Of a DNA stretch of 64,000 nt, positions 35,467 through 38,227 are shown in pieces; within the stretch, counting starts at the first letter, position 1, and the number at the start of each line of letters is the position of its first letter. Location: contig JAJQHQ010000025.1 in the NCBI GenBank assembly GCA_021199655.1, positions 36,798 to 100,797 of the forward strand. Reading direction: 5' to 3'. A program made the translations under genes and the position numbers. This DNA comes from Lachnospiraceae bacterium. GTDB lineage: Bacteria; Bacillota; Clostridia; Lachnospirales; Lachnospiraceae. The notes under the pieces are model-generated. The model was not told the origin of the DNA. It saw nothing but the letters and a program-made list of their open reading frames with translations, and did no database searches.

Positions 35467-35886
35467 ATGAACAGGGAAAAGAATAGAAACATGGATGAGG
35501 GGTGTATGCCTCACCGCGGAGGAAAAGGAGACCATTTACTTGAGGAACTGGCGGAGAAGGGAATGCTGCTTTTTGTGGGTTCCGTGAATTGCCTGCGCCA
35601 TAAGCCATATCGGAGAATTGGGGCACTGATGCGTGAGGGACGGGCGGCGCTGCTTTGTCCGTCGATGAGCGATTTTTCCAGCGGGCGCTATTTGAATCAG
35701 ATCGTTGAGGCACTCGCAGAGCTTTCCAGGGAACATGGGGAGAAGCGGTTTGTCATTGCCTGCGGCTGCCAGTGGGTCATTCTCTCAACAGACAGTGAGC
35801 TGCTGAAGGAGCGGGTAAAACGGGAATATGACATTGACCTTACTGTATTTGAGGACGCACATCTGGAGTTTGGAGATCATGAATAG
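35467..35886 (+). CDS. Nitrogenase component-1-like half-domain protein
   Basis: A 139-residue protein that looks like only the first Rossmann-type domain of a nitrogenase/BchN-type component 1. Matches by eye: GSVNC (Cys42) at the place of the HGxxGC loop, the SMSDFSSGRYLNQIVEAL stretch at the place of the T/S-E-x-D-x-x-x-GG region, and ACGCQWVILSTD (Cys99, Cys101) at the place of the C-x-x-x-(I/L)-x-(G)DD loop. Cys13 and Cys64 are further candidates. Three cysteines spaced like this hold the cluster in BchN-type subunits. Usual component-1 proteins have 400-520 residues. The gene has its own promoter and precedes a larger component-1-like gene and nifH-like gene. Confidence 0.6.
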   Translation: MNREKNRNMDEGCMPHRGGKGDHLLEELAEKGMLLFVGSVNCLRHKPYRRIGALMREGRAALLCPSMSDFSSGRYLNQIVEALAELSREHGEKRFVIACGCQWVILSTDSELLKERVKREYDIDLTVFEDAHLEFGDHE

Positions 35887-35979
35887 CAGCGTGTTTTGGG
35901 AAAACGAGACGCAGATTTGCGGCCGGTTTGGTTTAACAGACGGATTCGATGAAACAAAAGAAAAGGAGACATTGATTAT

Positions 35980-37326
35980 ATGAAGCGATTGTGGAAAGTG
36001 CTGCCGCCCTGCCTTTCGGATCTGATGGGATTTGAGGCAGTCGTGAATGAGACAGAAGGAATGGGACTGATCGATGATTCGAGCACCTATAAGCCGCTTA
36101 TGTTTGGGCGCGGCGGGCATGGCCGGCCGGAAGTGGAAGGCCACCATGGACATGGAGGCGGTCGGGGCGTCTTTGGAAGGCTGATGCCTGGAATGCGCGT
36201 CCTCAATTCAGACATCCGCAATGAGGATATTATTACGGGTACGGAAAAGAAGGTGATGCTTGCGTTTGATAAGGGTGTGAAGCAGCTTTCCCCGAATTTT
36301 GTCCTGCTTGCTTATGGACCGTCAGCGTCTATGATTGGGTCAGATCTGGAATACGCGGCAGAGAAGATTACGGAAGGTTCTGCCTTCGTGCGGCGAACCT
36401 CCATGGACGAACCGGCCAGCCTCCGAACGGAGAGAGGTGGCGCTTCTGTGCAGAGCGGTCTTCCCGCGGCGTCGGTGAAGATTGACGGTGAAAAGGATTA
36501 TCTGTATGGGATCAGCTGCACGCTGGAAGCAATGGGACGTCTTTTGCTGACACCGCGTCCGACGATTCCCGGCTCCCTGAATATTCTTGGCGCCAATACG
36601 ATTGACTGGGCAAAGGAATCGTTTGCCGATCTGGAGGCGCTTTTGAAGCAGGAAGGAGTTCAGATTCTCTCCCGATGGGGCTGGAAGGAGACGACGGAAA
36701 ATCTGAAGCTGGCGTCTGCCGCGGCGCTGAACCTGGTAGTAAACGAATCCGGTCTGCGACTGGCCAGGTATATGGAGAGCGAATATGGGATCCCCTATCT
36801 GGCAGGAGCACCGTTCGGTGCGGACTTTGCGGTGACACTGAAGATCAGGTTAAAAGAAGCCGTCCCAGTGACTGACACGGAACATTCGGGAGAGAAACAA
36901 AGGATAGATGTCGGTTTGTCTGAGTCAGCCGCGAGCCCGAATGAAGATCAGAGAAAAGAAAATAATGTGGATACAGAGCCGGAGATTCTGATCGTTGGGG
37001 AGCAGTTTACGGCCAATGCGATTCGCCGTGAATTACTTCGCCGCGGAAAAACAAAGATCCGGGTGCTCAGTTTTTATGATATGGACAGGTCCTATATGGA
37101 GACTGGCGATCAGAAGCTGATCGGAGAGGATGACTTTATCAGGCAGGCCAATGCAGAGTCTGTCCGCATCATATGTGCCGATGGCGACCTGCGGCCGCTG
37201 GTGAAAAAAGAAGTGCGTTGGGTGCAGCTCCCCAATACGGGCAGTATGTTTCCGGCAGAACCAATGGAAGCGTTCAACATGACGGGCGGTGCACTGGATG
37301 CCTGGCTGGACCGGGAAGGACTGTAA
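35980..37326 (+). CDS. Divergent nitrogenase-like component 1 (NifD/K family)
   Basis: A 448-residue protein with the general plan of oxidoreductase/nitrogenase component 1: LPPC (Cys11), NSDIRNEDIITGTEKK near 79-94, a segment LAYGPSASMIGSD near 111-123 where a cysteine is normally found (here absent), and later Rossmann parts (about 195-300 and 335-445). The usual HGxxGC loop is replaced by a Gly/His-rich stretch at 43-63 (H47, H55, H56, H58). So of the P-cluster ligands only Cys11 seems kept. I infer that it pairs with the 139-residue protein before it and receives electrons from the NifH-like protein after it. Not a nitrogenase for N2: cofactor-binding His/Cys context is not present. Confidence 0.7.
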   Translation: MKRLWKVLPPCLSDLMGFEAVVNETEGMGLIDDSSTYKPLMFGRGGHGRPEVEGHHGHGGGRGVFGRLMPGMRVLNSDIRNEDIITGTEKKVMLAFDKGVKQLSPNFVLLAYGPSASMIGSDLEYAAEKITEGSAFVRRTSMDEPASLRTERGGASVQSGLPAASVKIDGEKDYLYGISCTLEAMGRLLLTPRPTIPGSLNILGANTIDWAKESFADLEALLKQEGVQILSRWGWKETTENLKLASAAALNLVVNESGLRLARYMESEYGIPYLAGAPFGADFAVTLKIRLKEAVPVTDTEHSGEKQRIDVGLSESAASPNEDQRKENNVDTEPEILIVGEQFTANAIRRELLRRGKTKIRVLSFYDMDRSYMETGDQKLIGEDDFIRQANAESVRIICADGDLRPLVKKEVRWVQLPNTGSMFPAEPMEAFNMTGGALDAWLDREGL

Positions 37327-37405
37327 ACTTCTGGCATCATTCAAGAATTCGGAAGGTCTGTAAGCCTCCGGCACCGTTCGAAATGTGGAAAGGGTGAATG
37401 AATCT

Positions 37406-38227
37406 ATGAGACAGATTGCTATTTATGGAAAGGGCGGCATTGGTAAATCTACAACGTCACAGAATCTGGCGGCCGCTCTGGCGGAAAATAAGAAAAAACT
37501 GATGATCGTGGGCTGCGATCCCAAAGCGGATTCTACGAGACTGATTCTGGGCGGCCATGCGCGCCGGACCGTGCTGGACACGATGCGGGAAAAGGACGAA
37601 GATGAAGTGGAGCTGGGAGATTTCCTCTACACAGGTTTTCAGGGAATGAAAGCTGTGGAATCCGGCGGTCCGGAGCCGGGAGTCGGCTGCGCAGGGCGCG
37701 GGATCGTCACAGCCATCAACCTGCTGGAGAACCTGGGTGCCTATACATCGGATCTGGATTATGTCCTGTATGATGTTCTGGGCGATGTGGTATGCGGCGG
37801 TTTTGCCATGCCGATCCGGGAAGGAAAGGCGAAAGAAATCTATATTGTCTGTTCGGGGGAGATGATGAGCCTGTATGCGGCGAACAATATCTGCAAAGGG
37901 ATACGCCGCTACGCGGAAACCGGCAAGACAAAGCTTGGCGGACTCATCTGTAATTCCCGTATGGTGGATCAGGAGAGAGAGCTTGTGGCCGCATTTGCGG
38001 AGAAAATTAATACGCAGATGATTTATTTTATTCCCCGCGATAATCTGGTGCAGCACGCAGAGCTTCAGCGTAAAACAGTCATCGAATATGCGCCGGAGTC
38101 CGCGCAGGCGGACGAATACCGTTCTCTTGCGCAGGTGATTGAGGAAAATACCGGATTTTCCGTGCCGACACCGATTTCGAACGATGAACTGGAAGAGCTT
38201 CTGATGAAGTATGTTCCGATCAAATGA
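37406..38227 (+). CDS. NifH-like ATP-dependent reductase
   Basis: A 273-residue homodimeric iron protein: P-loop GKGGIGKST (about 8-16), switch region [10 protein letters not shown], and both [4Fe-4S] ligands, Cys95 in GVGCAGRG and Cys130 in DVVCGGFA. It should be a working ATP-driven electron donor, as for NifH, BchL or CfbC. I chose ATG 37406; 37385 would add seven residues. The only likely partners are the two component-1-like proteins just upstream. No nifB, nifEN or nif regulatory genes are in the window, which argues for a nitrogenase-like (Nfl) function such as tetrapyrrole or C-S/C-X bond reduction. Confidence 0.88.

Follow-up and report, generated by a model that had tools for sequence, protein, structure and literature searches.

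The locus described here raises the question of what a nitrogenase-like system can do when one of the two chains of its component 1 is represented by a single small domain. It lies in a stretch of 64,000 nucleotides (the window; positions 36,798 to 100,797 of the forward strand of contig JAJQHQ010000025.1, assembly GCA_021199655.1) from a Lachnospiraceae bacterium, whose genome of 3.98 Mb is assembled in 110 contigs and is 98.56% complete. An initial annotation, made from the DNA letters only, had delineated three open reading frames (ORFs) at 35467-35886, 35980-37326 and 37385/37406-38227, all of which were confirmed; their products are named P1, P2 and P3. On balance, the analysis favours a reduced nitrogenase-like (Nfl, group IV) reductase, in which P1 and P2 would pair around an interface [4Fe-4S] cluster fed by P3, under the control of a MarR-family regulator.

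A scan of species genomes yielded 14 related loci, and counts out of 15 refer to these loci plus the window. The further loci encode P2 relatives at 51-94% identity (best segment) and all derive from metagenome-assembled genomes (MAGs) recorded as Lachnospiraceae or Clostridiales. P1, P2 and P3 occur in the same order in 14 of these 14 loci, in several genomic settings; the frames of P1 and P2 are open in 15/15 loci and that of P3 in 13/15. Loci and genomes are designated by L and G numbers, respectively; flanks of at most about 8 kb were available per locus, and a neighbour called absent is absent inside that distance.

P3 (37385..38227, forward strand; 280 residues from a GTG start, or 273 from an alternative ATG at 37406) was assigned as a NifH-type Fe protein. 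It scored 448.7 bits with the NCBIfam NifH model TIGR01287 (cut-off 394.35), contains the P-loop and both cluster cysteines that had been recognized initially (C95 and C130, numbered from the ATG), and matched the nitrogenase iron protein 6q93 in the PDB with an E-value of 7e-119; comparison with structures gave 399 bits for NifH and 162 bits for BchL. Two nif-bearing plasmids encode NifH proteins to which P3 is 65.8 and 63.6% identical; identity rises to 68.8% with the H proteins of loci L116 (Treponema) and L060 and is 52-56% with four NflH proteins of related systems. The neighbours of the L116 H protein are annotated as cysK and O-acetylhomoserine sulfhydrylase, and L060 presumably includes a cysteine synthase; the label MAR-type given to both H proteins is our own. 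In a NifH tree containing 13 of the 15 P3 rows (the frameshifted copies of L008 and L014 were left out), P3 was joined with NifH and the MAR-type H proteins at 96/99. The 23 NflH rows lie apart from this group, the nearest three being placed beside it with weak support.

Despite this Fe protein, the genome offers little else of a nitrogenase. The PF00148 family has a single match in the whole genome, which is P2 of the window, and since there is only this one PF00148 protein, no other partner for P3 was found. PF00142 has five matches, of which P3 scores 415.6 bits and the other four 21-40 bits, and the best match with the NifB model reaches 29.9 bits (cut-off 343.65), so that with one PF00148 protein and no NifB over the cut-off a NifHDK plus NifENB set was not found in the genome. 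Nitrogen fixation was dismissed on the basis of the lone PF00148 protein and the NifB match far under its cut-off; fixation by the trio is very unlikely, and the initial idea of a reduced system that does not fix N2 is thereby supported.

P2 (35980..37326, forward strand; 448 residues) had been taken for a half-size component 1, which is not tenable. The protein matches PF00148 over residues 73-282 (E 7.5e-18; 65 bits against a gathering score of 28.6), placing it in the superfamily, and its alignment with NflN chains (377-434 residues) runs from one end to the other (hhalign E 5.6e-52). Because of this end-to-end alignment, which rules out a half chain, P2 is a full-length NifN-like component-1 subunit with extra low-complexity stretches. 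In a component-1 tree with 10 of the 15 trio P2 rows, P2, the protein of sister locus L090 (in a second genome of the window's genus) and NflN were joined at 100/99, P2 and L090 likewise at 100/99, and NflN as a single clade at 88/74 only. The nearest relatives of P2 outside the trio are, in the regions fetched, NifN-like chains whose genes have NifH and a NifE-like chain, mostly of 416-433 residues, as neighbours; these systems are denoted NflHEN. As P3 groups with true NifH and component 1 with the Nfl branch, the trio is a mosaic, and the histories of its component 1 and its Fe protein seem to differ.

The Gly/His-rich stretch that had been noticed in P2 does replace the expected GC motif, while the single histidines highlighted with it are not conserved and only the composition is retained. 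The region of the lost motif reads DDSSTYKP or DDPSRYKP, followed by a stretch of 33-93 residues (about residues 40-72 in P2 of the window) with 21-42% Gly and 2.7-12.1% His, compared with 0-1.5% His in the remainder of P2.

P1 (35467..35886, forward strand; 139 residues) is predicted to be a component-1 first domain standing alone, as had been proposed, and more exactly that of a NifE-like chain; its homology to such a chain is supported by two kinds of profile comparison. A hidden Markov model (HMM) of the P1 family was run against 2761 ORFs from the fetched neighbourhoods, a set that includes overlapping copies of some loci. The best 18 matches outside the family were 17 NflE-type or related component-1 chains and one ORF of 389 residues that is cut by the contig start and lies directly 5' of an NflN gene. 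Their E-values run from 2.4e-7 (L073 of genome G714) to 0.11 for the weakest of the 18, and wherever coordinates were printed the best matches were located in the N-terminal ~160 residues. In hhalign comparisons, residues 15-126 of P1 aligned with positions 16-128 of NflE (E 3.2e-8), compared with E-values of 0.048 for P2 plus NflN, 0.14 for NflN, 0.099 for P2, 0.012 for other component-1 chains and 0.61 for NflH. The P1-NflE score of 57.9 exceeds those of 100 column shuffles (mean 15.5, maximum 31.5) and of the reversed alignment (20.7). Since NifE structures are found with the NflE profile (E 1.1e-16), P1 is tied to the component-1 fold in two steps. These profile comparisons make P1 a homologue of the N-terminal ~110 residues of a NifE-like partner chain that has ~420 residues; covering about 113 of the 418 positions of the NflE profile, it falls well short of a full-size E chain. 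The C-terminus of P1 falls shortly past the stretch homologous to NflE; C42, H45, C101 and the terminal HLEFGDHE are conserved, and since the protein ends in this HLEFGDHE in 15/15 loci, its short form is a fixed product and not an assembly accident. In the divergent copies L012-L015, the P1 start carries an extra Gly/Arg/His-rich N-terminus that resembles the P2 insert. In sister locus L090 (genome G976) the contig ends before the P1 position, and no P1 was found elsewhere in G976 (82% complete) by a search that also missed full-size chains.

The distribution of cysteines over P1 and P2 is central to the proposed pairing. C42 and C101 of P1 are each present in 15/15 copies and align with the two invariant cysteines of the NflE chains (11/11), at the positions of alphaC88 and alphaC154; their spacing of 59 compares with 58 in NifK and 66 in NifD. 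C64 of P1 occurs in 14/15 copies (it is lost in L014) and H45 in 15/15. C13, the third cysteine of the originally proposed P1 set, was found in 2/15 copies and was consequently rejected as a family ligand, leaving the other two of that set standing. NflN chains have one cysteine in a GC(T/N) motif (the betaC95 position) in 16/16 rows, which is lost in the P2 rows, so that P2 departs from the NflN pattern at this position. The conserved cysteine of P2 is C11, noted earlier and now seen in 15/15 copies, at 26 residues before the lost GC position; in NifD the first two ligand cysteines have a spacing of 26, in NifK one of 25. Each P1-P2 pair thus has three conserved cysteines, two on the E side and one on the N side at a different place, which contradicts the initial suggestion that the small protein holds the cluster alone.

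Component-1 chains have three domains; the first domains of both chains form the face on which the NifH dimer docks and from where electrons pass to the cluster between the chains. Since P1 corresponds to a first domain, with two cysteines and the helix after C101 retained, and P2 to the other half, the trio would retain the docking site and the electron entry but lack those P1 domains which elsewhere in the family contribute to enclosing the active site. In the proposed mechanism, P1 and P2 may pair like NifE and NifN, with a [4Fe-4S] cluster at their interface held by P1 C42 and C101 and P2 C11; the fourth ligand would be a group other than a conserved cysteine, or P1 C64, with C64 and H45 of P1 as candidates. 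A P3 homodimer would dock on the P1/P2 face, hydrolyse ATP and pass low-potential electrons through the interface cluster. The substrate could be bound in P2, or a bulky substrate or a protein might occupy the room that the missing P1 domains leave, and a MarR repressor responding to a small molecule would control the operon.

The same data can be read as a P2 homodimer that works with P3 as CfbD does with CfbC, in which case P1 would be an accessory or regulatory NifE descendant. P2 is full length, CfbD is described as a homodimer in PMC11423573, and P1 covers only the small portion of the NflE profile given above. P2 alone, however, has one invariant cysteine, a low number for a cluster even if two copies pair, and every copy of P1 retains exactly the two invariant cysteines of the partner chain. 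A homodimer is judged unlikely, second in rank among the alternatives weighed here.

Several observations weigh against a paired P1/P2 reductase. A four-ligand cluster is left with only three conserved cysteines; for comparison, the interface cluster of BchNB is held by three cysteines and one aspartate. P1 on its own finds no component-1 chain among the PDB sequences: its matches there are designed helical repeats (E down to 3.4e-9), which were set aside as spurious helical matches, and the ribosome hibernation factor Balon (E 1.4). Likewise, a Pfam search with P1 of the window or of L014 returned no family, the PF00148 gathering score not being reached, and in NCBIfam its sole match is weak, with a family of ribosome hibernation factors (E 0.0072; 15.4 bits, where the cut-off is 480). 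Moreover, the P1 HMM misses some NflE chains, those of G343 and G980 remaining unfound and the partners in L047 and L048 ranking low. Finally, P3 is frameshifted in 2/15 loci, leaving 210 residues in L008 and 37 in L014; the broken frames in these two MAGs may be real or may be assembly errors.

These frameshifts, the loss of P1 C64 in L014 and the early end of an importer binding protein in the window would be expected of a decaying remnant, and the initial annotation had regarded decay as the refuting alternative if full-length homologues proved to be the norm. Full-length partners are indeed the rule outside the clade. Nevertheless, with the window compared with 12 of the 14 loci for each gene, dN/dS was 0.05-0.15 for P1 (10 unsaturated comparisons), and 0.13-0.22 for P2 and 0.03-0.10 for P3 in the unsaturated comparisons. 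A frame control over 10 loci gave a mean dN/dS of 0.08 for the real P1 frame and values from 0.18 to 4.36 for the other five frames. The trio is under purifying selection. As the short form of P1 is intact in all loci and under such selection, it is not simple decay; the open P1 and P2 frames and the conservation of promoter boxes and a palindrome in 12 loci (see below) point the same way, and a remnant is very improbable, being contradicted by the selection data and the frame control.

The trio is rare. At an E-value of 0.001, the P1 profile detected matches in two of the family's 397 genomes and in three of 391 from the class, the third of these being a full-size chain. P2 matches were found in 39 of 196 genomes of the order, two of them trio-type. 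Within the genus of the window, 11 of 47 genomes carry a trio-type P2 and 20 have any P2 match; in the genus of G102, a trio-type P2 is present in 5 of 9 genomes, and P1 was found in all five (four sought separately, G102 by the profile scan). Searches with P1 gave no match among plasmids and viral contigs, and those with P2 gave none among phages and, among plasmids, one distant Treponema component-1 protein (22.5%).

The trio is preceded by a promoter-like sequence, TTGACA-17-TATGAT (35348..35376, forward strand), that agrees with the consensus at 11 of 12 positions and would serve as its promoter. Both boxes were seen in an alignment of 12 loci bearing MarR1, a MarR-family regulator (38224..38760, forward strand; PF12802, E 9.9e-13) whose gene follows P3 in 12/15 trio loci; the long exact pattern occurs in 9 of these 12. 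Beside the -10 box lies a conserved palindrome, TTAACTCATGTGAATTAA (35376..35393, assigned to neither strand), which has its sole exact match in the window at this site and is probably the MarR1 operator. The palindrome pattern is found in 12/12 trio loci with MarR1 and is absent from the three loci that lack MarR1 (L013-L015, one clade); regulator and palindrome are thus present or absent together in 15/15 loci, which amounts to a single phylogenetic contrast. In L012 the genes follow in the order P1-P2-P3-MarR1-MATE, separated by gaps of 19-23 bases and one overlap. A riboswitch search at 30400-39500 found none. A second promoter-like sequence, TTGACA-16-TATAAT (38771-38798; 12 of 12 positions), precedes MarR2 and the MATE gene.

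Upstream of the trio, an importer of two FecCD permeases, an ATPase and a binding protein (31148..35060, forward strand) had been linked to it in the initial annotation, which suggested that the substrate or its metal is imported. This link was not supported. The importer is adjacent in 7/15 trio loci only and is probably a separate transcription unit. A repeat followed by a T-run lies between importer and trio at 35164-35200 (absent from the list of the terminator scan), a second terminator-like site is found at 35318-35340, and the promoter-like site of the trio comes after both. The importer has its own upstream palindrome, TTAG-N6-CTAA, in 6/7 importer loci, which we take to be a DtxR/IdeR-like box. 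Membership of the trio operon was rejected on the basis of these terminator-like repeats, the promoter-like site of the trio and the palindrome of the importer.

The importer binding protein is nearest to SstD, under the cut-off of that model, and in the window (34182-35060) it has 292 residues, an in-frame stop falling 22 residues before the length of 314 found in six relatives from adjacent importers. This binding protein, the only importer gene surveyed for co-occurrence, was found in 11/11 trio-bearing genomes of the genus and, at >=96%, in 1/36 others; in 4 of the 11 trio genomes it is non-adjacent: in G965 the distance is about 13 kb, and in the remaining ones it is on separate contigs. 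Among the 15 nearest genomes by the C-terminal part of NadE (at least 84%, a threshold set after the fact, and without the short pieces of G975 and G994), the binding protein occurs in 11/11 genomes with the trio and in 1/4 without it (p 0.009). This co-occurrence is weak, since the four absences represent about three events on the NadE tree.

Importers also accompany related systems. Seven NflHEN systems with FecCD importers of their own (L047, L048, L051, L053, L058, L073 and L096) fall in one NflN sub-clade. Joining the component-1 tree with the FecCD model matches showed that the NflN sub-clade providing the best E-chain matches of P1 has a FecCD importer beside 8/9 rows, and the other sub-clade beside 0/7, some of the fetched regions stopping at contig ends. 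The FecCD permeases beside the trio scored 45-96 bits with a model of the NflHEN-side FecCD proteins, compared with 305-573 bits for those systems' own, which are high by construction as the model was built from five of them. Trio locus L008 and sister L090 have importers nearest to the NikA/Opp families, below cut-off; with binding proteins 27-29% and permeases 47-48% identical, they were not taken as orthologous, and a single linked NikA-type partner was rejected.

The other neighbours vary too. A MATE exporter gene (39358..40806, forward strand; TIGR00797, 219.8 bits) lies within 7.5 kb of the trio in 8/15 loci, the divergent L012 among them, and is regarded as an association only. An SDH_alpha gene, which we take to encode a cysteine-desulfidase-like protein, stands beside the trio in L013-L015. 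The chelate-type importers, the MATE exporter and the MarR regulator are compatible with the handling of metal chelates or small aromatic compounds, no link being constant, and the substrate class that fits the neighbours best is a metal chelate, or else a small molecule of aromatic or tetrapyrrole-like type. Going further, the trio might be an ATP-driven, nitrogenase-type reductase of metal chelates: with most of the E chain lost, the cluster would be laid bare, imported chelates could be reduced at it, the metal passed to the flexible Gly/His loop of P2 and the ligand exported through the MATE protein, all under MarR control. In its favour are the metal-chelate-family importers adjacent to 7/15 trio loci, the NikA/Opp-like importers of L008 and L090, and the contrast of 8/9 with 0/7 rows between the two NflN sub-clades. 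Ferric siderophores have potentials of -350 to -750 mV, beyond the reach of NAD(P)H, as stated in PMC9727729. This specific function is considered unlikely.

Downstream, 40967-45748 encodes two flavoenzymes, one NirB-like and one resembling fumarate reductase, each of which 6/15 loci have near the trio, and upstream, 25431-29969 encodes a 1512-residue BcrAD/BadFG plus DUF2229 activase, which belongs to another family of ATP-driven low-potential electron transfer. Their presence within about 10 kb, and the fact that most of a chain which usually contributes to the cavity is gone, would suit an electron conduit or activase whose acceptor is another protein docking where the P1 domains are missing. 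Both flavoenzymes, however, are near the trio in those six loci (7.5-kb flanks) in one setting only. A conduit is considered unlikely, although it heads the alternatives to the P1/P2 reductase.

Further features of the window are recorded here in their own right. The region 12056-18507 looks like a corrinoid or cobalt uptake operon: after a Cobalamin riboswitch (RF00174) it encodes a CbiK-domain protein whose start resembles a signal peptide, then a binding protein, a FecCD permease and an ORF that, read by eye, is ATPase-like. Clostridiales-1 RNA (RF01699) occurs twice, at 39-204 (forward strand) and 57564-57738 (reverse strand). Two long ORFs with Gly/Pro-rich repeats, at 57838-60576 (912 residues) and 49609-50982 (457 residues), appear hydrolase-like by eye.

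Among known systems, the closest parallel to the trio is found in the NifHEN-like genes described in 2012 by Dos Santos et al., where (PMC3464626) a clade with Coprococcus catus and Dorea longicatena is reported to conserve two cysteines in its E chain and one in its N chain. Equating this clade with the NflHEN systems fetched here rests on that cysteine pattern and not on the sequences used in that paper. The trio shares with these systems the grouping of NifH-type, NifE-like and NifN-like genes and the two-plus-one conserved cysteines, and some of them also stand beside ABC importers. In contrast, their E chain has 416-433 residues (506 in some) in the fetched regions, where the trio retains ~110 homologous residues; their N chain keeps the GC cysteine that P2 has lost, P2 having C11; and most of their H proteins lie on another branch than P3. 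PMC3464626 also suggests assembly roles for such genes where they neighbour transporters or hydrogenase maturation genes. The trio could accordingly be imagined as a NifEN-like scaffold for a metallocluster or cofactor instead of a metabolite reductase, the more so as the NflE and the P2 plus NflN profiles each rank NifE first among solved structures (for the latter, E 1.4e-26 compared with 1.5e-18 for BchB) and P3 lies with true NifH. The genome, however, has no NifB over the cut-off and the operon has no dedicated apo-enzyme, and a scaffold is improbable, ranking below the P2 homodimer.

A reduced P1/P2 reductase also resembles the characterised members of the superfamily in part. It would share with DPOR (BchL-BchNB) an Fe protein with two component-1 chains, an interface [4Fe-4S] cluster and an incomplete cysteine set, whereas both DPOR chains are full size and the substrate is a tetrapyrrole. 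With CfbC-CfbD it has a simplified component 1 and an Fe protein in common, but CfbD is a homodimer of one chain (PMC11423573) and the trio has two unequal genes. Methylthio-alkane reductase MarHDK is similar in the H protein, given the identity of P3 to the H proteins labelled MAR-type, and differs in that the component-1 chains of the trio are on another branch; MarDK carry a P-cluster and an [Fe8S9C] cluster (PMC12552129). In characterised members, component 1 consists of full-size chains, which form an unequal pair or, as in CfbD, an equal one (PMC11423573). The combination of a one-domain E chain, a moved N-chain cysteine and an Fe protein of the NifH branch did not appear among the matches listed by full-text searches of an open-access library; papers outside it may describe it.

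For surveys based on nifH, P3 is a warning: it scores over the NifH cut-off although its genome yielded no nitrogenase. A relative of true NifH that works with an Nfl-type component 1 would bear on the specificity of Fe-protein docking. Moreover, a one-domain chain with re-dealt cysteines would show the minimal electron-accepting unit for a NifH protein, which could thereby be tested in a small soluble complex.

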